A stretch of DNA of 64,000 nt from Parabacteroides sp. PF5-9 (lineage in GTDB: Bacteria > Bacteroidota > Bacteroidia > Bacteroidales > Tannerellaceae): contig NZ_JARXWG010000001.1 of the NCBI RefSeq assembly GCF_029893105.1, forward strand, positions 62,001-126,000. The letters are read 5' to 3'. The position numbers and the translations under genes are program-made. Position 1 is the first letter of the stretch; each line of letters begins with the position of its first letter. Below are positions 31,955 to 45,242 of this stretch, in pieces. The notes below the pieces were generated by a model. It was not told the DNA's origin and did not search any database. It was given only the letters and a program-made list of their open reading frames with translations.

Positions 31955-33346
31955 ATGACAGAAGATTCTATTATTTGTGCCGTCTCGACTCCTCCCGGAT
32001 GTGGAGGGATTGCTGTGATACGTTTATCCGGAAAAGGATCAATCGAACTGGTCGATCAACTGTTCAGAACTCCTTCGGGAACAACCCTGACAGAGAGCCG
32101 CCCGAATACGGTTCATTTTGGTGAAATTCTCAAAGACGATAGAACACTGGATGATGTCTTGATCTCCATCTTTCGGGCGCCCCATTCGTTTACCGGTGAA
32201 GAGACTGTCGAAATCTCCTGTCATGGTTCCGTCTACATTCAGCAACAGATCCTGCAACTATTGATTGAAACAGGTGCACGTTCGGCTTTACCCGGCGAAT
32301 TTACCCAGCGCGCTTTTCTGAATGGAAAAATGGATCTAAGCCAGGCTGAAGCGGTAGCCGATCTGATCGCCTCCACCTCTGCCGGGCAACATAAACTTGC
32401 TCTGAACCAAATGCGGGGAGGATTCAGTAATGAACTGGTTAAATTACGTAGCCAATTACTCGATTTTACTTCTTTAATTGAGCTCGAACTCGATTTCAGT
32501 GAAGAAGATGTGGAGTTTGCCGACCGGAGCAATCTTCGTCAGTTGGCTGTTACGATCGAACAACTGATCCGCAAACTGGCCGATTCGTTCAGCGTAGGGA
32601 ACGCCATCAAAAACGGTATCCCTGTGGCTATCATCGGCGAAACCAATGCCGGCAAATCCACTTTACTAAACCTATTGGTCGGTGAAGAACGAGCCATTGT
32701 CTCCGATATTCACGGAACAACCCGGGATGTTATTGAAGACACGATCAGCCTTTCAGGAATCACCTTCCGCTTTATTGATACGGCTGGGATTAGAGAGACA
32801 AGCGATTCCATCGAAAATATGGGGATCGAACGCACATTTAAAAAGCTGGAGCAGGCGGCTATTGTCCTTTGGGTGATCGACCTGACTACTCCCGCTTTAC
32901 AGATCGAAACGTTGGCTAAAACCATTCTGCCGAAAGCCGAAGGCAAACACCTCTTGTTGGTATTCAATAAATCCGATTTGCTTACTGCCGAAGAACTGTC
33001 CGAGCGTCAGCAAATGTTGAATCATATACCTGCCGAACGACTTTATATTTCGGCTAAGCACGAAACATCGCCTACCTTTATACAAGAAAAACTTCTTCAA
33101 GCCGCCGCTTTACCGGAACTGACGCAGAACGACGTGATCGTCACCAACATCCGCCATTACGAAGCATTATCCAAAGCCCATCAGGCCATTCTACGTGTAA
33201 TAGAAGGAATGCAGACCGGTATCTCCAGTGATTTCCTAAGCCAGGATATCCGAGAGTGCATGCATTACCTGGGCGAAATTACCGGACAGATCAGCAATGA
33301 TGAGATACTGGGGAATATTTTTGCGAATTTTTGTATCGGGAAGTAA
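31955..33346 (+). CDS. mnmE: tRNA uridine-5-carboxymethylaminomethyl modification GTPase MnmE
   Basis: 463 residues from the ATG at 31955. N-terminal THF-binding domain (IICAVSTPPGCGGIAVIRLSG), helical domain, inserted Ras-like G domain ([29 protein letters not shown]) and the essential C-terminal CIGK. Works with MnmG to modify U34 of tRNAs. The last four codons and the stop are the attachment core of an integrative element, so insertion leaves the protein intact. Confidence 0.97.
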   Translation: MTEDSIICAVSTPPGCGGIAVIRLSGKGSIELVDQLFRTPSGTTLTESRPNTVHFGEILKDDRTLDDVLISIFRAPHSFTGEETVEISCHGSVYIQQQILQLLIETGARSALPGEFTQRAFLNGKMDLSQAEAVADLIASTSAGQHKLALNQMRGGFSNELVKLRSQLLDFTSLIELELDFSEEDVEFADRSNLRQLAVTIEQLIRKLADSFSVGNAIKNGIPVAIIGETNAGKSTLLNLLVGEERAIVSDIHGTTRDVIEDTISLSGITFRFIDTAGIRETSDSIENMGIERTFKKLEQAAIVLWVIDLTTPALQIETLAKTILPKAEGKHLLLVFNKSDLLTAEELSERQQMLNHIPAERLYISAKHETSPTFIQEKLLQAAALPELTQNDVIVTNIRHYEALSKAHQAILRVIEGMQTGISSDFLSQDIRECMHYLGEITGQISNDEILGNIFANFCIGK

Positions 33347-33347
33347 G
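33332..33347 (+). other. attL core
   Basis: TGTATCGGGAAGTAAG; includes the last four codons and stop of mnmE. Confidence 0.85.
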
Positions 33348-33545: not shown

Positions 33546-34688
33546 ATGAAGATCACACTAAAGAAGAAAAAGCTAACGACTGGAAAGCTCTCCTTGTATA
33601 TTGAGTATTACAAAGGAAAAATTGTAGATGCCGAAGGAAAGGTCAAGCATAATCGAGATTTCGAGTATCTAAAACTGTATCTACACGAGAATCCACAAAA
33701 CCCAAAGGAAAAACAAGAAAACAAAGATACTCAAAAACTAGCAGAAGATATACTGGCTATTCGTCAAGCTGAATATGTGCAAGGTAAGTATAGCATCCGA
33801 GATCACAATAAACCTAAAGAGTTATTCTTGGATTACTATGAAAAGAAAAAACAAGAACGCTATCAGTCTGATCAAAACTATGACAACTGGCATGCTGCAC
33901 AAAAGCACCTACTTAAATACTGCCCGAAAAACTTAACCATAGAAGAAGTTACGCCAGACTTCATAAGAGGATTCAAAAAGTATTTAGATACAGAGGCAAC
34001 CACAAGCGCAGGAATAGGATTAAGTCAAAACTCCAAATACACTTATTACAATAAGTTCAAGGCTTGTATAAATGCAGCTTTTGATGAAGGATACTTTTCT
34101 TCTAACCCATTAAGAGGTATCAAGGGTTTTGAGATGGGAGAAAGTCAAAGGGAATACTTGACTTTTAACGAATTACAATCGCTGTATAGAGCAGAATGCA
34201 AATATCCAATGCTAAAAACAGCTTTTCTATTTTCCTGCCTAACAGGATTGCGTTGGAGTGATGTCAATAAGCTAATCTGGGGCGAAATCCGAGAAGAAAC
34301 GGATAATGAAGGTAAACCCTATTGCAAAATCATATTTCGACAGGAGAAAACAGACGGATTAGAGTATTTATATATATCCGACCAAGCACGTTCTTTACTT
34401 GGGGACAGGAAAAATGAAAGCGACAGAGTTTTCCGAGGGTTGAAGTATAGTTCTACGAATAATGCAGAAATCGTTAATTGGAGCAATCGAGCCGGCATAA
34501 CTAAGCACATTACGTTTCATTGCTCGCGCCACACTTGCGCAGTTCTTATGCTTGAAAATGGAGCGGATCTATATACCGTTTCCAAATTTTTAGGGCATAG
34601 AGAATTGAGAACTACACAGATTTATGCCAAGATCGTTGATAGCAAGATGAAAGAAGCGGCTAATATTATTCCCGAATTAAAATTATAA
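33546..34688 (+). CDS. tyrosine site-specific recombinase (integrase)
   Basis: 380 residues: arm-binding domain (~1-80), SAM-like core-binding domain (~88-190) and catalytic domain (~200-375). Catalytic residues are visible: Arg236 (CLTGLRWSD), His325 and Arg328 (FHCSRH), His351 (FLGHREL) and Tyr360 (TTQIYAKI). Typical of Bacteroidetes integrative elements. It lies 200 bp inside attL and should catalyse integration at mnmE. The next gene begins 3 bp downstream. Confidence 0.95.
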   Translation: MKITLKKKKLTTGKLSLYIEYYKGKIVDAEGKVKHNRDFEYLKLYLHENPQNPKEKQENKDTQKLAEDILAIRQAEYVQGKYSIRDHNKPKELFLDYYEKKKQERYQSDQNYDNWHAAQKHLLKYCPKNLTIEEVTPDFIRGFKKYLDTEATTSAGIGLSQNSKYTYYNKFKACINAAFDEGYFSSNPLRGIKGFEMGESQREYLTFNELQSLYRAECKYPMLKTAFLFSCLTGLRWSDVNKLIWGEIREETDNEGKPYCKIIFRQEKTDGLEYLYISDQARSLLGDRKNESDRVFRGLKYSSTNNAEIVNWSNRAGITKHITFHCSRHTCAVLMLENGADLYTVSKFLGHRELRTTQIYAKIVDSKMKEAANIIPELKL

Positions 34689-35814: not shown

Positions 35815-36102
35815 ATGAGCACTATTGAACTTGACAATCGCTTAGAGCGTATTGAGAAGCTGTTGTTAGGCAGCAAAAAAGTCCTAACATTCGATGAAGC
35901 ATGTGATTATACGGGTATTTCACGAAGCTACATGTACAAATTAACTTCTTCTGCAAACATTCCGTTCAGCAAGCCTAATGGGAAAATAATCTTCTTTAGT
36001 CGAGAAAAATTAGATAACTGGATGCTCGAAAATGAGCATAAAACAAACCGAGAGATAGAAGAAAGAGCATCTCGCTATACAAGCAAAAAAGCATGGAGAT
36101 GA
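35815..36102 (+). CDS. excisionase-type helix-turn-helix protein
   Basis: 95 residues. MerR/HTH_17-type motif: VLTFDEACDYTGISRSYMYKLTSSANIPFSKPNGKIIFFSREKL, the standard small recombination-directionality or copy-control protein of Bacteroidetes elements. An N-terminal helix precedes it and the tail is basic. It probably assists excision or regulates the following replication genes. Confidence 0.82.
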   Translation: MSTIELDNRLERIEKLLLGSKKVLTFDEACDYTGISRSYMYKLTSSANIPFSKPNGKIIFFSREKLDNWMLENEHKTNREIEERASRYTSKKAWR

Positions 36103-36184: not shown

Positions 36185-37387
36185 ATGAAAGAAGAGATCC
36201 CATATATAAGGGTTGCCGTATCCTATTACAAAATAGTTAAACGACCTCTCACCTCTGGCGATTCAACAATAATTCTTGTGCCTTGGAACAAAGAGACAAT
36301 AATAGCTGATCATGGAAAAGATTACTTGGCTCAGATTCCGCAATATGATGGTTTTTGCTGTATTCCATCTCACTTGGAGTATCAATTGAAGGTCGGGACG
36401 TTTTACAACCAATATCATGAATTGGAACATCATCCAAAACAAGGAGATTGCAGTACTATTTTATATTTTCTGCAACATATATTCCGAGAACAATATGAGT
36501 TAGGATTGGATTACATTAAAATCTTATACGAAAAGCCACTACAGATCCTCCCGATCCTCTGCTTAGTCAGCACCGAAAGAGGTACTGGAAAAACAACCTT
36601 TCTGAATCTTTTAAAATTGATTTTTGACAAAAATATGACTCTGAATACGAATGATGATTTCCGATCACAGTTTAATTCCGACTGGTCTAACAAAATTATT
36701 ATTGCAGTAGATGAAGTATTACTGGATAAACGAGAGGATTCCGAAAGAATTAAAAATCTCTCAACAGCACGACTTTTTAAATCCGAAGCTAAGGGCAAAG
36801 ATCGACAAGAGATAGAGTTCTTTGGTAAATTTATACTTTGCTCTAATAACGAAACAAGTTTCATTCATATAGACAAGGAGGAAATTCGATATTGGGTCAT
36901 TAAGGTATTCCCTTTTTCCAATACTCTAAATTGCTCTTCGGAACAATTTTTCGAAAGGCTCAGATTGGAAGTACCTGCATTTCTTTATTTTTTGCTTAAC
37001 AGATCCTTTCATACAAAAAATGACTCAAGAATGTGGTTTACCCCTAAACAGATTGAAACGGAAGCACTTATTAAGTTAAAGAGGAATTATAAATCTACGC
37101 TCGAAAAAGAAATGTTGGATATTTTGCAGACTATTTTTGAAGATCAAGATCTGGAACAACTCTGTTTCCAAATAAATGATGTTATATGCTCATTGAGTAA
37201 TCTGAATAGAAAAGCATATTCATTGCACAAAATTCGGGATATTTTAGTCTCTTCATGGGGACTTTCTGCCACCAACTCTTCCTACGTACGATACATCATT
37301 TTTGCAGATGGAACAATCTCTAAAAATCAACACAAAGGGCGGTATTATGAGCTGACGAAAAAACGGTTTGATGAAATTTACTGTTGA
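36185..37387 (+). CDS. P4-type/superfamily 3 replicative helicase (DUF5906-like)
   Basis: 400 residues. Walker A at STERGTGKTTFLNLLKLIF (~128-146), Walker B at KIIIAVDEVLL (~176), and the sensor-like KFILCSNNET (~212) followed by WVIKVFPF; a C-terminal winged-helix-like domain completes the protein. This pattern is that of phage/plasmid SF3 helicases that load at an origin. It directly precedes an iteron-like array and a primase, so the three together look like a replication module. Confidence 0.82.
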   Translation: MKEEIPYIRVAVSYYKIVKRPLTSGDSTIILVPWNKETIIADHGKDYLAQIPQYDGFCCIPSHLEYQLKVGTFYNQYHELEHHPKQGDCSTILYFLQHIFREQYELGLDYIKILYEKPLQILPILCLVSTERGTGKTTFLNLLKLIFDKNMTLNTNDDFRSQFNSDWSNKIIIAVDEVLLDKREDSERIKNLSTARLFKSEAKGKDRQEIEFFGKFILCSNNETSFIHIDKEEIRYWVIKVFPFSNTLNCSSEQFFERLRLEVPAFLYFLLNRSFHTKNDSRMWFTPKQIETEALIKLKRNYKSTLEKEMLDILQTIFEDQDLEQLCFQINDVICSLSNLNRKAYSLHKIRDILVSSWGLSATNSSYVRYIIFADGTISKNQHKGRYYELTKKRFDEIYC

Positions 37388-37572: not shown

Positions 37573-37623
37573 GTGTTTTTGCTACCTCCAGCGAAGACAC
37601 TCCAATTAAAAGAAAAAAAAGCA

Positions 37624-38502
37624 ATGAATTTAGATAAAATAAAGACAATAAGTATACATGAGTATTTGGCAAAAAAAGAATTCCATCCACAAAGAAGAAA
37701 TGAAGTACGAGGCATTTATATTTCTCCAATACGCAAAGACAATAATGCTAGTTTTAGCGTAGATTTCCAGAAGAATTTATGGTATGATCATGGCATAGGG
37801 AAAGGTGGAAGTATAATAGATCTTGTGTCAGAAATGGAAAATTGTAGTATTTCAGATGCAATAAAGAAACTAGAATCCGATTCTTTTTCTTTTCATCGGG
37901 AAGCAGTCATTTATAATGGAAAGCAAGAACGTCCCGAACAATTATTCTCAATTTTGAAGGTGAAAAAACTTGGAAATTTTGCATTGATTGACTACCTGAA
38001 TGAACGTTGTGTAGATATAGATACTGCAGAAAAACATTGTTGTGAAGTTTATTACTCTATCAACAACAATCGATATTTTGCAATAGGATTCGCGAACAAT
38101 TCTCCAAATAGTTATGAACTACGAAATAAATATTTCAAATCTTGCATTGGCAAAAAGGATTTTACTTACATAAACAATGGGACAAAAAGAACCGTTTTGT
38201 TTGAAGGATTCATGGACTATCTCTCGTTTCTATCAATGCAAGAAGATCGCCATCTTTCTAGTGATGCCATCATTCTGAACAGTACTGCAAATACAAAAAG
38301 AGTATTAGATCTTTTATGTAAATACGATGAAATTCATTCATACTTGGATAACGACCAGGCGGGGAGTGAATGTTCTCTTTTTATTCAAACTCATTGTCCA
38401 GATTCTTTTGTGGATTGTCGGAAGGAATATTCAAATTTCAAAGATTTGAATGAATTTTTATGTTGGAAAAACAATGAAGAAAAACTGGGCTATTTGCGAT
38501 GA
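37624..38502 (+). CDS. DNA primase with TOPRIM domain (CHC2-like N-terminus)
   Basis: 292 residues from the ATG at 37624; upstream in-frame codons overlap the iteron array. The N-terminus resembles a degenerate DnaG zinc-binding domain (ISPIRKDNNASFSVDFQKNLWYDHGIGKGGSIIDL) although the usual CHC2 cysteines are absent. The TOPRIM domain shows TVLFEGFMDYLS (Glu) and SYLDNDQAGS (DxD). It makes primers for element replication, together with the helicase upstream. Confidence 0.82.
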   Translation: MNLDKIKTISIHEYLAKKEFHPQRRNEVRGIYISPIRKDNNASFSVDFQKNLWYDHGIGKGGSIIDLVSEMENCSISDAIKKLESDSFSFHREAVIYNGKQERPEQLFSILKVKKLGNFALIDYLNERCVDIDTAEKHCCEVYYSINNNRYFAIGFANNSPNSYELRNKYFKSCIGKKDFTYINNGTKRTVLFEGFMDYLSFLSMQEDRHLSSDAIILNSTANTKRVLDLLCKYDEIHSYLDNDQAGSECSLFIQTHCPDSFVDCRKEYSNFKDLNEFLCWKNNEEKLGYLR

Positions 38503-38618: not shown

Positions 38619-39008
38619 ATGATTACAAACAATATCATGATGAAAAATAACAAAACAAGACGATTGTATATACGACTTACAGAACAACAATTTGAAATTG
38701 TCAGAAAAAAATCTGATGATGCAAACATGAGCATGACAAATTTCTTTCTTGATCTTTTGGGGATTGAAAAAGCGATATACCAACATAAGGAGTTAATTGA
38801 TATCATCTATAAATTGGTGTCTAACGATAAGCGGGTTGAGAATAACATTAACCAAGTAGCTAAACACCTGAATCAAAATTCGGAAAGGATTTCAGATCAA
38901 GTTATTTGTGATTATATTGATATGATCGAAAAATATATGAATAAAAGGGATAAAATCAAAAGAGTATTGGGAAGATTGATTAGTTTAATGGCAGATTATA
39001 GGTTGTAA
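38619..39008 (+). CDS. MobC-like relaxosome accessory protein (orphan)
   Basis: 129 residues; alternative ATGs at 38637 and 38640. The ribbon-helix-helix start (KTRRLYIRLTEQQFEIVRKKSDDANMSMTNFFLDLLG) and the tail INQVAKHLNQNSERIS match MobC/BmgB proteins that bind oriT and help a relaxase. Normally the relaxase gene follows at once; here none is present and the next genes are on the other strand, so the mobilisation module appears truncated or works with a relaxase supplied in trans. Confidence 0.8.
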   Translation: MITNNIMMKNNKTRRLYIRLTEQQFEIVRKKSDDANMSMTNFFLDLLGIEKAIYQHKELIDIIYKLVSNDKRVENNINQVAKHLNQNSERISDQVICDYIDMIEKYMNKRDKIKRVLGRLISLMADYRL

Positions 39009-40390: not shown

Positions 40391-40406
40391 CAAAAAAGGA
40401 AGAAAT

Positions 40407-41573
40407 ATGGATAAGTTATTTGAATATTCCAATAGGCTAATAAAAGAAACTGACACCAAGTTTTTTCGATATATGTACGATGAAATAAATTGGAAAAACA
40501 GGATGATAGGGCTTATTGGTCCGAGAGGTGTTGGGAAAACTACATTAGTGCTTCAATATATCAAGCAAAATCTCAATCCTGCCGAAACGCTTTATGTAAC
40601 GGCAGAAGATTTTTATTTTGTTGATAACAGATTTGTCGATTTGGCTGATACTTTTGTTAAGCATGGCGGTAAGTATCTGTTTATAGACGAAATCCATAAA
40701 TATAAAGATTGGGCAAAGGAATTAAAGTTGATTTATGACTATCACAAAGATTTGAATGTGGTATTTACAGGTTCTTCGGTTCTGGATATAAAAAAAGGAG
40801 CTTCGGATTTAAGCCGTAGGGCTGTTATATACAACATGCAAGGGTTGTCTTTCCGAGAGTATTTGCAATTGTTTCATGATATTTCAGCAAGAACCTACTC
40901 GCTAGAGGAAATATTGCAGCACAAAGTTGAATTGCCTGTACAACACCCACTACCTCTTTTCTCTGACTATTTAAAAACAGGCTATTATCCGTTTGCTTTA
41001 GAAGAAGATTTCGGATTACGTTTAGGGCAAATTATCAACCAAACTTTAGAAAATGATATTCCGATGTACGCCGATATGAATGTGGCAACAGGAAGAAAAC
41101 TAAAGCAATTACTTGCCATTATATCTAAGAGCGCACCATTTAAGCCCAATATGAGTAAGATCGCAGAAATGTTATCTGCAAGTCGGAACAATATAGCAGA
41201 CTATTGCTTATATATTGAAGAAGCGGGCATGATAGCCCAGTTAAGAGATAATACTGGCGGTGTTCGAGGCTTAGGTAAAGTCGATAAAATATATTTGGAC
41301 AATACTAATCTTATTTACAATCTTGCCGAAGATACATCCAATATCGGAAATATTAGGGAAACTTTTTTTATCAATCAAATGCGAGTAAAACATGACGTAT
41401 TCGCATCGCCTGTTGCTGACTTCTTGATAGATGATAAAACCTTTGAAGTTGGAGGTAAGAACAAGGGACAGAAGCAAATTAAGGAGGTTGAAAATGGATA
41501 TATTGTAAAAGACGATATTGAGAGTGGGTATTTGAATGTTGTGCCGTTATGGCAATTGGGTATGAGTTATTGA
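40407..41573 (+). CDS. AAA-family ATPase with DUF4143-type C-terminus
   Basis: 388 residues from the ATG at 40407, just after the -7 box and a purine-rich AAAAAAGGAAG. Walker A GLIGPRGVGKTTLVLQYI (~35-52), Walker B KYLFIDEIHKYKDW (~88-101), sensor VVFTGSSVL. The C-terminal part has the nuclease-like VADFLIDDKTFEVGGKNKG (Asp...Glu-x-Gly-x-Lys) typical of AAA_14/DUF4143 proteins. These are frequent accessory genes of Bacteroidetes and may act in stress or defence; function unknown. A truncated second copy lies outside attR at 44545-44814. Confidence 0.85.
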   Translation: MDKLFEYSNRLIKETDTKFFRYMYDEINWKNRMIGLIGPRGVGKTTLVLQYIKQNLNPAETLYVTAEDFYFVDNRFVDLADTFVKHGGKYLFIDEIHKYKDWAKELKLIYDYHKDLNVVFTGSSVLDIKKGASDLSRRAVIYNMQGLSFREYLQLFHDISARTYSLEEILQHKVELPVQHPLPLFSDYLKTGYYPFALEEDFGLRLGQIINQTLENDIPMYADMNVATGRKLKQLLAIISKSAPFKPNMSKIAEMLSASRNNIADYCLYIEEAGMIAQLRDNTGGVRGLGKVDKIYLDNTNLIYNLAEDTSNIGNIRETFFINQMRVKHDVFASPVADFLIDDKTFEVGGKNKGQKQIKEVENGYIVKDDIESGYLNVVPLWQLGMSY

Positions 41574-41650
41574 GGATATTTCATAAGTTTCATTTTAATC
41601 CCCAATTAATTTAATATTTTTGTATTTCAGGATAATAAGTATAGTTTGAG

Positions 41651-41860
41651 GTGGAGTTTAAAATTATTAAAATCGAGATAGACAGCCTGTTGCGAAGCAA
41701 TCCTTCTTTTGAGGGGGGGAGTTTAAGTGAAAAAGGAGTGGAGTTGTTTGATAAGAGGACAATACCCCTATTTAAGATTCTATTACTCTGTTTAACTCCA
41801 AAAAATATCGAAGGGATACAAGAATTTATTGAGTTCAATTCCAGAAATAAGTTAAGATAA
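41651..41860 (+). CDS. possible small protein with GTG start
   Basis: 69 codons starting with GTG at 41651 (EFKIIKIEIDSLLRSNPSF). Composition is protein-like, but there is no ribosome-binding site or recognisable domain, and the neighbouring DNA is AT-rich. It lies between two cargo genes. It may be a fragment of a larger lost gene. Confidence 0.3.
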   Translation: MEFKIIKIEIDSLLRSNPSFEGGSLSEKGVELFDKRTIPLFKILLLCLTPKNIEGIQEFIEFNSRNKLR

Positions 41861-42086
41861 ATATATGTCAATCCTTTTCGAGAAACAGGGTTGTTAGAAT
41901 ACACGATAAAAGATAAGCCTAACTCTTCTAACCAGCAGTATGTTATAACAGAAAAATGGGAAAGTTTTTTTAGGTAGATCTGAAGTCTAAAAAAACTGTA
42001 TAATATAAGTAAAAGCGTTACATATTTTGCTGCATAAAACCTAAATCGTAAACTTGTGAGTATTAATGTGTTGAAATAAAAAAAAT

Positions 42087-44036
42087 ATGAAGATCACGAA
42101 AGTAAATATACCAACAGTTTCACTAGAAAATGGTATCCCAAATGATGGCCTATCCCCAATAGTAATGAACAAATTAGGCGATATTGTATTATTAGTAGGG
42201 AAAAATGGATCAGGAAAATCTCGAATTTTAAAAAAAATATCATCTACTATCCAGAAAAAGCCAATAAAAAAAGAGGTTGAGAGTTCTGAGCTGAATATAG
42301 AGCAGCTAAAGAATAATATTTCTTTATATCATAATTCGATAAACAATAATTTCAAACCCTCTTTAGAAAAAGCCACAAAAGCCACCGATAAACAACGGAT
42401 TAAACAACAAATTGAACAGTCTAAACAATCCATCAAGGAATCAGAAGACAAAATCAAGAGATGGCAATTAAAACAACATTGGAACTTTATAGAAACAGAT
42501 ATATTGCAAGATTCTTATAAGATAGTATATTTTGTTCCTAAAAAATTAGATTTGAAGGATTGCAATGCTTTAACACCAACTCAACTGAAGACGAGTTCTG
42601 AAAATGTAAAAGAGATAGGTGTTGAAAAATTATCTGATTGTTCTTTGGCGAAAATAAAAAAAGTTGTTGATAATCATTTCAATGCAACTCATCAAAATTA
42701 TCAGGGGGATGCTGGACTAAAACAAAACGCAATTGAAGAATATACACTGTTAGACGATCTAATATATGCATTTCTAGGAACTAGGTTAGATCGAAATATT
42801 GATGGAGATACAACCCTTTTTAACTTCCCTATAGGTTCTGCAAAATTATCTGATGGACAAAAAATTCTACTTCAATTATGTGTTGCGATACATGCGCAAG
42901 GAGCATCATTAGATAATATGATTCTATTTCTCGACGAGCCTGAAAATCATATGCATCCCTCTGTTACGATCGAATTTCTTGATGCATTAATAAAAAAAGT
43001 TCCTAATGGACAAATTTGGATAGCAACACACTCTATCCCATTGATTTCTCATTTTGGGACAGGAAATATTTGGTATGTTGATAATGGCAATGTTAGTTAT
43101 GCTGGCAGAGAGCAAGAAAAAGTGTTAGAGAGCCTCTTAGGAAATGAAGACGAAATAGAGAAACTGAATGATCTGATAAATTTATCAGCAGTTTCAGCCA
43201 TCAACAATTTTGCATATGAATGTCTTTCTCCGCCTAACGCAGTAATGACTACAGGTAATGATCCGCAATCAAAGCAAATCGGCTTTATATTGATGGAAGA
43301 ATTAAGAAAAGGGAAAGTTAAATTGTTAGATTATGGTGCAGGAAAAGGTCGTTTTGTCAATAATTTTTTTGATCGTTTAAATGAAAGTGAAAGACTAATT
43401 GTACAAACTCAATTTGAATATGTGGCATTTGATAAATACAATAATGATAAAGATGACTGCCTAAAAAACATAGAACGAGTGTATGGGGATTCAGAGAAAA
43501 AATACTATAATGACTTTACTAGTTTACTGTCAGATCACGATAAGGGTTCTTTCGATATAGTAGTTTTATGTAATGTTCTTCATGAAATAGATCCCAAAGA
43601 ATGGCTTGAATTATTCAAAGCAGAAGGGGATATTACACCCTTATTGAAAGATAATTCTGGTGTTCTTTTGCATGTTGAAGATATGCTATTGCCAGTTGGG
43701 GAAAAAGCTTATAGAAATGGATTTATTGTTTTAGATACGCCGCATATTAAAGAATTATTTCAATTGCGAAGCTCCGATTTGAGGTATTTTACAAGCAATG
43801 AAGCTAAATTTAAAGATCGATTAAAGGCGCATCTAGTTCCTAAAAATAATCTTGCATCAATAACAGAAGAAACACGAAGAAAAGCATTAGAGGGAATACT
43901 AAAAACAGCAAAAGATGAAATAAGAACTATTAGAGATGCAACCCCCGATTACAAGAGTGGGAAAAAGCATGCTTTTTGGGTACAACAATTTGCTAATTCA
44001 AGTCTGGCGTTAAGTGAATTATCAAATGGGAAGTAA
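42087..44036 (+). CDS. ABC-type ATPase fused to a class I SAM-dependent methyltransferase-like domain
   Basis: 649 residues. The N-terminal ATPase has Walker A GKNGSGKS (38-45), a ~80-residue helical insert (Lys/Gln-rich, ~60-130), the ABC signature LSDGQK (254-259), Walker B MILFLDEPENH (278-288) and the switch His in ATHS (315): an OLD/RecF-like AAA_21 architecture. From ~390 a class I methyltransferase fold follows: motif I LLDYGAGKGRF (413-423), acidic loop AFDKY (447-451), FDIVVLCNVLHEID (489-502) and VLLHVEDMLLP (526-536). It is the last gene before attR, a common cargo position. I know no named system with this fusion; a nucleic-acid-triggered defence role is inference. Confidence 0.85.
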   Translation: MKITKVNIPTVSLENGIPNDGLSPIVMNKLGDIVLLVGKNGSGKSRILKKISSTIQKKPIKKEVESSELNIEQLKNNISLYHNSINNNFKPSLEKATKATDKQRIKQQIEQSKQSIKESEDKIKRWQLKQHWNFIETDILQDSYKIVYFVPKKLDLKDCNALTPTQLKTSSENVKEIGVEKLSDCSLAKIKKVVDNHFNATHQNYQGDAGLKQNAIEEYTLLDDLIYAFLGTRLDRNIDGDTTLFNFPIGSAKLSDGQKILLQLCVAIHAQGASLDNMILFLDEPENHMHPSVTIEFLDALIKKVPNGQIWIATHSIPLISHFGTGNIWYVDNGNVSYAGREQEKVLESLLGNEDEIEKLNDLINLSAVSAINNFAYECLSPPNAVMTTGNDPQSKQIGFILMEELRKGKVKLLDYGAGKGRFVNNFFDRLNESERLIVQTQFEYVAFDKYNNDKDDCLKNIERVYGDSEKKYYNDFTSLLSDHDKGSFDIVVLCNVLHEIDPKEWLELFKAEGDITPLLKDNSGVLLHVEDMLLPVGEKAYRNGFIVLDTPHIKELFQLRSSDLRYFTSNEAKFKDRLKAHLVPKNNLASITEETRRKALEGILKTAKDEIRTIRDATPDYKSGKKHAFWVQQFANSSLALSELSNGK

Positions 44037-44462
44037 TTTCCTTTAATTTAGATATAATTAATGTACTTCATTTTTTACTAAATTCATATTGAGTATTTTA
44101 AAGGAAGTGCAGCGTAGAACACAGGAATAAACACAATTATAAAGTCGTTACCTTCCTCGTTGGTAAATCATCGTTATCCCAACTTACTCAAAGGGTTTCA
44201 TTTGAAAGTCAATATAGAGTATCTATAAAAGGAGTATGATATTGAGATAAAAATGAGGATGATTTATCAAGATGAGAATAGGAAAAGTATGATCTAAGGG
44301 CAAAATGGGGGGATGGAAGTTTATAGATTCTTTTTTTCATAAATCAACCCCAATTTAGTTTAAGCAATATAAAAATAACTTTTCATCATTTTGGTGAATT
44401 AACAGGCGAAATTACCACGTGTATCAACAATGGTATTTCCTCTTCTGATTACAAAACAAATA

Positions 44463-44480
44463 GTACACCCATAATACACC
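44463..44480. repeat. right-end TACACC motifs, candidate integrase arm sites
   Basis: GTACACC and ATACACC near-tandem, 44 bp inside attR; counterparts of the left-end motifs at 33478-33526. The 490-bp gap 44037-44523 otherwise holds no gene I can support. Confidence 0.45.
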
Positions 44481-44523
44481 TAATAAAATGCAAATACTTG
44501 ATAATCACAAATATTTCACATAA

Positions 44524-44539
44524 TGTATCGGGAAGTAAG
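44524..44539 (+). other. attR core
   Basis: TGTATCGGGAAGTAAG, identical to attL at 33332-33347. Confidence 0.85.
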
Positions 44540-44544
44540 GATTG

Positions 44545-44814
44545 ATGGACAATACTAATCTTATTTACAATCTTGCCGAAGAGATCTCTAATATCAGATA
44601 TATTCGCGAAACATTCTTCTTAAATCAAATGCGAGTAAAACATGACGTATTCGCATCGCCTGTTGCTGACTTCTTGATAGATGATAAAGCCTTTGAAGTT
44701 GGAGGGAAGAACAAGGGACAGAAGCAAATTAAGGAGGTTGAGAATGGATATATCGTAAAATACGATATTGAGAGTGGATATTTGAATGTTGTTCCATTGT
44801 GGCATTGGGGTTAA
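44545..44814 (+). pseudogene. 3' fragment of an AAA/DUF4143 ATPase gene
   Basis: Encodes the C-terminal ~90 residues (MDNTNLIYNLAEE ... YLNVVPLWHWG) of a protein nearly identical to the ATPase at 40407-41573 (region 41296-41570). Upstream codons are missing because the fragment begins six bases after the attR core. It lacks the ATPase domain and is most likely a remnant of an earlier insertion at this site. Confidence 0.8.
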
Positions 44815-44843
44815 CGTATTAAATTTATTTATTGCAAACCATT

Positions 44844-45242
44844 ATGAGTAAACGAGATTACATACAAGCCAATAGAGACTGGCTGGAGATAAAATCAAAG
44901 GAAGAGGATGTCAAGCCTCTCCCGAAAGGAATATATTACAAGGTGATAAACGAAGGGAAAAATGACGGAAACCATCCGACTCCGAGAAGTATTATTACCG
45001 CCCACTATACAGGATGGACTATCAATGGCAAAAAGTTCGACAGCAGCCGTGGAGGTACGCCAATTGCATTCAGATTGAACGAACTGATTGAAGGATGGGT
45101 TATAGCGATGCAACAAATGTGTGTCGGGGATAAATGGGAGTTATACCTTCCTGCCGAAATGGGATACGGAAAATTCTCACAACCCGGTATACCTGGAGGG
45201 TCAACACTTATATTCGAGATTGAGCTGCTTGGAATAGCTTAG
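44844..45242 (+). CDS. FKBP-type peptidyl-prolyl cis-trans isomerase
   Basis: 132 residues from the ATG at 44844 (MSKRDYIQANRDW). A short helical lead is followed by one FKBP domain with AHYTGWTINGKKFDSS, the LIEGWVIAMQQMCVGDKWELYLPAEMGYG core and IPGGSTLIFEIELLGI. No signal peptide, so it is cytoplasmic. It catalyses proline isomerisation in folding proteins. It sits just outside the mnmE-integrated element. Confidence 0.92.
   Translation: MSKRDYIQANRDWLEIKSKEEDVKPLPKGIYYKVINEGKNDGNHPTPRSIITAHYTGWTINGKKFDSSRGGTPIAFRLNELIEGWVIAMQQMCVGDKWELYLPAEMGYGKFSQPGIPGGSTLIFEIELLGIA

Follow-up and report, generated by a model that had tools for sequence, protein, structure and literature searches.

An ABC ATPase-methyltransferase fusion protein, a candidate for one-gene phage defence, on an integrative island of Parabacteroides sp. 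PF5-9

The stretch of DNA analysed here (64,000 nucleotides of contig NZ_JARXWG010000001.1 of Parabacteroides sp. PF5-9, hereafter the window) carries a gene for a 649-residue protein, designated P0001, as the terminal cargo of an island of 11.2 kb that carries an integrase and is inserted at the 3' end of mnmE. The protein is, as predicted, a single chain in which an ABC ATPase is followed by a complete class I S-adenosylmethionine (SAM)-dependent methyltransferase (MTase), and it probably represents an antiviral system of a new kind, made of a single gene, whose action may be to methylate rather than to cut. An earlier note on this DNA, made from the sequence alone, had described a complete ATPase core fused to an MTase-like domain. 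The open reading frame (ORF) was recovered as described there (ATG to TAA, 42087-44036), and so were the motifs of the ATPase (GKNGSGKS at residues 38-45, LSDGQK at 254-259, LDEPENH at 282-288 and ATHS at 313-316) and of the MTase (LLDYGAGKGRF at 413-423 and FDIVVLCNVLHEID at 489-502); the fusion itself was confirmed by Pfam, by AlphaFold2 and by 26 further full-length homologues. Pfam matches of P0001 were AAA_21 (1e-13, above its cut-off) and Methyltransf_23 (6.5e-6; 26.4 bits, just below the 27-bit cut-off), together with a stray KAP_NTPase match inside the MTase part (residues 417-472; 21.8 bits, cut-off 20) which recurred in 2 of 23 members of the family, while AAA_21, AAA_15, Methyltransf_23 and Methyltransf_12 were matched at E<=0.01 by all 23 aligned members. 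The whole chain was modelled by AlphaFold2 on a 21-sequence alignment with a mean predicted local distance difference test (pLDDT) of 85.5, and the predicted order was an ABC head with a two-helix insert, a connecting helix (residues 354-380), the MTase fold (about 393-590) and a hairpin (594-647). The predicted template modelling score (pTM) of this model was 0.54, which does not fix how the domains lie relative to each other; the MTase part folded alone gave a pLDDT of 89.4 and a pTM of 0.88.

The family comprises 27 distinct members including the window protein, to which the others are 23-47% identical, namely the 20 loci L006-L025, L004, L114, L146-L149 and P0001 (L006 is the same record as L003, L019 as L005 and L145 as L024). 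No relative was returned when P0001 was used as a single-protein query against the genome_contigs, viral_contigs, plasmids and phages collections. Three homologous places (L003, L004 and L005) in two other genomes were found in an order sample of 393 genomes (at most three candidates scored per genome), and at least 20 loci of the same architecture (L006-L025) were obtained by an alignment-based scan of genome_contigs from the best 80 of 133 relatives. A phylum sample of 395 genomes added L114, which makes two of 395 with the window's own genome, and in a survey of 123 genomes of the same taxonomic family (at most nine candidates scored per genome) the fusion gene was present in its own genome alone. 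The named records belong to Bacteroidota, apart from three of proteobacteria, one bin with the label Patescibacteria and one bacterium without classification. In the phylogenetic tree, one fully supported branch separated 10 rows, with the window protein among them, from the other 17, and L012 and L019 stood on long branches.

Conservation was traced through both domains. Residues G38, N40, G43, K44, S255, G257, D283, E284, E286, H290 and H315 of the ATPase and G417, G419, G421, R422, N496, V497, L498, E500, W506, E531, G538 and E539 of the MTase were unchanged in 27/27 members, and H499 was kept in 26/27. Of the invariant columns, 19 fall in residues 1-60 and 241-351 taken together and 16 in 393-590, and residues 61-240 have none; the mean column identity was 31% in the alignment of the MTase part versus 33% in that of the whole chain. 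When the MTase profile was used alone in a class sample (at most six candidates scored per genome), 6 of 395 genomes were matched at 271-309 bits, all in frames of 645-692 residues, and the next match was at 43 bits; matches at E<=1e-5 occurred in 105 of the 395 genomes, the rest of them being weak and mostly in frames of 200-360 residues. The MTase domain was detected in none of 87 other loci with the ATPase part (L026-L112, of which 85 match the full-length profile), and the same search found it in all 27 family loci as a positive control; the matches of the viral scan (27 loci) were to the ATPase part only, none of them with the MTase domain. From the sharp profile in 6/395 genomes and its absence from the 87 loci it follows that the MTase domain was met in fused form alone. 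Each of the two domains is common on its own, as would be expected if a generalist MTase had joined a degenerate ATPase by accident and were carried as cargo with no selected function; such an origin is extremely improbable, since the architecture and motifs recur in 27 members down to 23% identity, the sharply bounded MTase profile was met in the fusion alone, and conservation extends across both deep subfamilies of the tree. On these sequence comparisons, the fusion is a real, conserved protein family that did not arise by chance.

The ATPase half was assigned by profile, by structure and by defence-gene models. The family profile had retron Ec83 PtuA as its top match in the PDB (9.4e-19), followed by PtuA of other retrons or Septu and by AriA, and each of the 50 matches listed by Foldseek was a chain from a PtuA complex, of Septu or of a retron. 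By VIA-align, in which rows differing by less than 1 in Z were treated as tied, residues 1-359 of the model were superposed on 9nnb_D with Z 16.5 (root-mean-square deviation (rmsd) 5.6 over 266 residues) and on 9e90_C with Z 16.2 (rmsd 5.0 over 259 residues), the best PtuA rows lying at Z 13.6-16.5. The best PADLOC match was AriA (6.9e-19, residues 33-320). The ATPase thus belongs with PtuA and AriA and not with RecF; the OLD/RecF-like label of the earlier note holds as to the OLD/PtuA class, with the refinement that by PDB profile, Foldseek and VIA-align the domain lies closer to PtuA than to either OLD or RecF. The score of P0001 against the NCBIfam PtuA equivalog was far below its cut-off (25.2 of 500 bits). 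Two long helices, 61-95 and 99-130, were predicted in the insert by AlphaFold2; helical inserts are usual in ABC ATPases of the PtuA/OLD-type class. No HEPN domain of the RloC/PrrC type was among the 22 Pfam families matched at E<=1, the coverage of that domain by Pfam being unchecked; AAA_13 was matched by 1 of 23 members, at 0.001, and no recognised nuclease domain was found in the chain by the Pfam and PADLOC scans.

For the C-terminal half, the predicted fold and the profiles both gave a class I MTase, as had been read from the letters: the fold is Rossmann-like, GxGxGR is kept in 27/27 members and an acidic residue (D/E) stands at position 449 in 26/27. Within the whole chain, the domain was aligned by VIA-align with the C-methyltransferase (C-MT) of CurJ (Z 15.5, rmsd 3.3 over 187 residues), PsoF (Z 15.2) and METTL6 (Z 14.2), with other small-molecule MTases alongside; as a single domain it gave Z 14.1 for the PsoF C-MT, 14.0 for CurJ and 13.2 for METTL6, and these near-tied values are therefore evidence of fold and not of substrate. 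METTL6 is a tRNA 3-methylcytidine (m3C) enzyme. These polyketide synthase (PKS) C-methyltransferases and METTL6, which are among the best structural neighbours, differ from the present domain in identity (about 11-19%), in the PKS context, which is missing here, and in the hairpin 594-647, which lies outside nearly all alignments. The best MTase sequence profiles were 3i9f (3e-8) and AprA MT2 (1.6e-5), and H499 and E531 align with the NVLH and with the Glu after strand 5 (LLE) of the latter. In AmxMT1 the His-Glu dyad has been placed at H304-E308 (PMC9821293), so that its match with H499/E531 is not established. PADLOC returned no family at E<=0.1 for the MTase part alone, either in P0001 or in L018.

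DNA MTases are marked by motif IV (N/D/S-P-P-Y/F/W) or PCQ. Neither [DNSH]PP[YFWH] nor PCQ was found after residue 330 in any of the 27 members, which therefore do not carry a usual DNA base MTase, and no DNA MTase was named among the 50 nearest MTase structures listed, whose recognised names we take to be those of small-molecule, lipid, tRNA, rRNA, small-RNA or cap MTases. By its modelled fold and its motifs, the domain is of the small-molecule/tRNA type and not a DNA MTase. An arrangement like restriction-modification (RM), as known from BREX, MADS or PglX, would have the MTase label the host's own DNA and leave unlabelled DNA to be attacked by the ATPase or by a partner. It is very unlikely here: the ATPase has a similarity to MADS MAD3 (NCBIfam 3.6e-11) that is weak and far below the cut-off, and some homologues adjoin RM genes, yet, besides the missing motifs, the chain lacks a nuclease and the loci lack a conserved partner. 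Identity with the DNA-MTase/RM systems (BREX PglX, MADS) was set aside on the motifs. A second alternative, less improbable than marking of DNA and still unlikely, is that the protein has no part in defence and is carried as cargo for ATP-driven modification of RNA or the ribosome, or for an antibiotic-related one, i.e. an ABC-F-like ATPase with an rRNA/tRNA methylase. It draws on a fold near METTL6 and Bud23, on a weak sequence match of the MTase to a 16S rRNA methylase and on weak profile matches to ABC-F and EF3 proteins; against it stand the stronger PtuA/AriA matches, the patchy presence (1/123 family genomes) and the exchange of the gene with candidate defence genes in one slot, as described below. 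ABC-F itself was not retained, as the chain has one ABC domain with a long insert and not a tandem pair.

The fusion was compared with known defence systems and with their models. Septu and retron PtuA (Ec83, Ec78/Eco7 type I-A) share with it the fold and the motifs of the ABC ATPase (residues 1-359) and the defence context; PtuA works with a separate HNH nuclease, PtuB (in retrons also with reverse-transcribed DNA), whereas the present ATPase carries a C-terminal MTase. No HNH gene of the PtuB type was recognised by eye beside the fusion gene in the window neighbourhood, and among the homologous loci an HNH-like neighbour was seen, by eye, at L024 alone. A retron was rejected, as the single RVT_1 match of the genome lies on another contig (C6) and none near the gene. 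PARIS, whose AriA is the best PADLOC match, likewise pairs an ATPase sensor with a toxic effector, the two being sometimes fused (PMC10568477), and differs in that this effector is a TOPRIM tRNA nuclease (PMC12409363) in place of a class I MTase. OLD, GajA and retron Eco8 resemble the fusion in joining an N-terminal ABC ATPase to a C-terminal effector in one chain, but end in a TOPRIM nuclease; no TOPRIM domain was found after the ATPase of P0001, where the chain folds and scores as a class I MTase. The earlier note knew of no named system with such a fusion, which held within the PADLOC 2023 and NCBIfam June 2026 models. The best 25 of 98 PADLOC matches all lay in the ATPase part and no model covered the fusion; no NCBIfam model came near its cut-off for P0001 (best 25 of 59 matches) or for five other members, among them MAD3 (NF047739; 42.9 and 43.0 of 420 bits) and PtuA (at most 45.9 of 500 bits).

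The features of the gene, its protein and the island are given in Table 1. The position beside attR of an integrative element and the terminal place among its cargo, both proposed in the earlier note, are borne out by the exact 16-nucleotide repeats, by the integrase and by genome G205 of the same family, in which mnmE and the FKBP gene adjoin with less than 200 bp between them and no island. As a control, up to three mismatches being allowed, at least two matches to the repeat were found in 8 of 100 shuffles; both real copies are exact and one of them is the end of mnmE. GC content was 34.0% for the island, 32.5% for the fusion gene and 46.9% for mnmE. Further island genes are one with no family match after the integrase and two small ones on the opposite strand before the DUF4143 ATPase gene.

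Table 1. Coordinates in the window of the fusion gene, its protein domains and the surrounding island
Feature	Position	Strand	Remarks
ABC ATPase-methyltransferase fusion protein P0001	42087..44036	+	649 residues; ORF ATG to TAA
PtuA-type ABC ATPase domain	42087..43139	+	residues 1-351
ATPase motifs			Walker A 38-45; signature 254-259; Walker B/DEPE 282-286; H-loop H315
Helical (coiled-coil-like) insert	42267..42476	+	residues 61-130; model, alignment
Class I SAM-methyltransferase domain	43263..43856	+	residues 393-590
MTase motifs			motif I 413-422; acidic residue D449; NVLHE 496-500; E531
Two-helix hairpin at C-terminus	43866..44027	+	residues 594-647; model
mnmE, integration target	31955..33346	+	named by eye; kin in 18/20 family genomes
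attL, last bases of mnmE	33332..33347	.	exact 16-nucleotide repeat
Tyrosine recombinase (integrase)	33546..34688	+	
Small helix-turn-helix protein, excisionase-like	35815..36102	+	by eye
P4-type primase C-terminal-like protein	36185..37387	+	weak, 3.3e-6
DnaG-like primase	37573..38502	+	
NikA/MobC-like mobilisation protein	38619..39008	+	weak match
AAA_14/DUF4143 ATPase	40404..41573	+	left neighbour of cargo slot; PADLOC PDC-S01-like
Exchangeable cargo slot	41574..44384	.	here the ATPase-MTase gene
Conserved right end of island	44385..44538	.	matches G1123, G1122
attR	44524..44539	.	exact 16-nucleotide repeat
Second, partial copy of DUF4143-gene 3' end	44546..44811	+	91% identical; just outside attR
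FKBP-type peptidyl-prolyl isomerase	44832..45242	+	right chromosomal flank; named by eye

Several observations were made on the island as such. The partial copy of the DUF4143 gene outside attR looks like the remnant of a previous, related island inserted at this site. The right end holds a degenerate copy of part of the mnmE 3' end (75% over 28 nucleotides with 33272-33299) and, being conserved in G1122 and G1123, may be an end recognised by the integrase. The FKBP region was 97.6% identical to that of G205 over 416 nucleotides, with the adjacent mnmE at about 73%, which suggests, by sequence comparison, that the right flank was also recently transferred. No relaxase gene was recognised by eye after the NikA/MobC-like gene, and the elements of G1122 and G1123 have one by eye; the island may have lost self-mobilisation. 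Relatives of the DUF4143 ATPase at E<=1e-120 were present in 29 of 123 family genomes (its own included), with several copies in some.

The slot that holds the fusion gene was filled otherwise in two relatives. G1122 shares the DUF4143 gene (92.6% identity across 1251 nucleotides) and, before FKBP, the right end (87.5% across 136 nucleotides, 44394-44528), with a degenerate att core; between them, the slot contains PDC-M37A (6e-111) and PDC-M37B (1.2e-147; DolB of Dodola at 9.6e-25) according to PADLOC. Behind its mnmE, which lies on another contig, stands an integrase element that carries a type I RM specificity gene (PADLOC 5.5e-113) and an HsdM gene recognised by eye. In G1123 the DUF4143 gene (89.8%) and the right end (78.7% over 155 nucleotides) enclose a caspase-family protease (Pfam Peptidase_C14 3.3e-20; PADLOC caspase 5.2e-12); att-like sites flank this DUF4143-caspase cassette, and the gene to its right is not FKBP. 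The mnmE site of G1123 also holds a type IIG restriction enzyme-methyltransferase, a type II MTase and a GmrSD-type protein. On contig C8 of G1123 (L188, L189) the order is an integrase element at mnmE and then the att-flanked cassette, which looks like a passive unit able to use the integrase of another element. The Dodola-like PDC-M37 pair and the caspase-family protease share the slot with the fusion protein and are unrelated to it; they are evidence on the slot and not on the mechanism. Among DUF4143 relatives in ten more genomes (G205 and nine others) none resembles the slot, and nine have no att pattern.

Around the homologues, clear defence genes were found within three ORFs in 5 of the 20 loci L006-L025, the matches at L009 (kinase) and L023 (weak) being left out of this count. 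The neighbours were GajA (1.8e-126), GajB (8.1e-71) and, by eye, an HsdS fragment at L010; a type II/I MTase and PDC-S26 at L017; a type IIG enzyme at L019; HsdM and HsdS at L022; and SIR2-like (1.4e-16) and type III-like (1.1e-16) proteins at L024. Contig ends cut L007, L010, L011, L017 and L149, and the remaining loci of the 20, like the six added later, looked solitary or stood beside core or unrecognised genes. No conserved operon partner was found: besides the fusion protein, no gene cluster occurred in more than 3 of the 20 loci, and therefore the single-gene reading stands. At L010 (767-6262), which is from an alphaproteobacterial bin, the type I HsdS fragment and the GajA/GajB pair directly flank the fusion gene. 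As the slot is shared with other candidate defence genes and some homologues have defence genes as neighbours, a defence role of the fusion protein is supported by its context.

By analogy with the PtuA, AriA and OLD proteins, the ATPase is proposed as the sensor and the C-terminal enzyme as the effector. We infer the toxic action of the MTase and its target, as well as dimerisation, sensing and activation, as follows. The PtuA-type ABC ATPase with its helical insert would serve as sensor and switch; a trigger arising from infection would alter the state of the ATPase and thereby activate the fused MTase; the activated MTase would methylate an essential component of the cell, most likely a tRNA or a metabolite, because the effector position holds a MTase of the small-molecule/tRNA type; and growth of phage and host would be arrested by this methylation. 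The MTase would then be the counterpart of the HNH and TOPRIM nucleases in Septu and PARIS. That the fusion is a self-contained, one-gene anti-phage protein of the abortive-infection type with a toxic MTase effector is, on this analogy, a proposal with about even prospects of being right. The more specific version, in which it is the first nuclease-free member of the OLD/PtuA class of defence proteins and its infection-activated MTase poisons the cell through methylation of tRNA or a core metabolite, is put forward tentatively and is open to considerable doubt.

A different defensive use of the MTase must be weighed here, namely that it is not the killer: it might sense SAM level or another ligand, or it might provide a self-marking which keeps the ATPase silent in the healthy cell, for example by methylating a host factor guarded by the ATPase. 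In favour of this, phages can destroy SAM or inhibit MTases, and no recognised nuclease domain was found in the chain; the MTase has much the same degree of conservation as the full-length protein, which is compatible with either role. This alternative is nonetheless unlikely, although it is the foremost of those considered, since catalytic-type residues are kept in 26-27 of 27 members, which a pure sensor need not do, and no second effector gene is conserved nearby.

Several points weigh against the toxic-effector proposal itself. The model gives no confident coupling of the two domains (whole-chain pTM 0.54), and the helical insert 61-130, which the earlier note suggested could bind a trigger, has no invariant column among the 27 members. 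Fifteen of the 20 loci L006-L025 show no clear defence gene in three ORFs on each side, mostly as judged by eye, and several homologous loci sit beside core genes; the neighbours were chosen by eye (16 proteins scanned), with no random-gene control. The argument from the slot concerns three genomes (that of the window, G1122 and G1123), and PDC-M37 and PDC-S01 are themselves candidate families and not proven systems. Finally, a toxic MTase effector with an OLD/PtuA ATPase is not reported for this class in the available parts of the literature consulted.

According to the same sources, ATPases of the OLD/PtuA class are coupled to TOPRIM, HNH, PD-(D/E)XK and PIN nucleases (PMC12839542), OLD proteins are ABC-TOPRIM chains beside which AriAB fusions exist (PMC10568477), and an operon with PtuA-like, GmrSD-like and RelE-fold genes combines a nuclease and an RNase-fold toxin (PMC11980606). 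tRNA is cleaved both by PARIS (PMC12409363) and by Septu (PMC13096335). An ATPase-MTase fusion in one chain was not described in the titles and abstracts covered; overlap with the DefensePredictor systems (PMC13092281) is possible, as the legends of that paper name 'MTase' among the domains of predicted and validated systems, in a form in which the architectures are not comparable. The sensor class is already known, and what is new here is an unnamed family and, as proposed, its effector chemistry. If the proposal is true, methylation joins the effector chemistries of OLD/PtuA-class sensors, and the family offers a compact one-gene system for sensor-effector communication, with ATPase and MTase pocket in a single chain, and further, hitherto unknown defence genes of related bacteria may be sought in the slot next to the DUF4143 gene.

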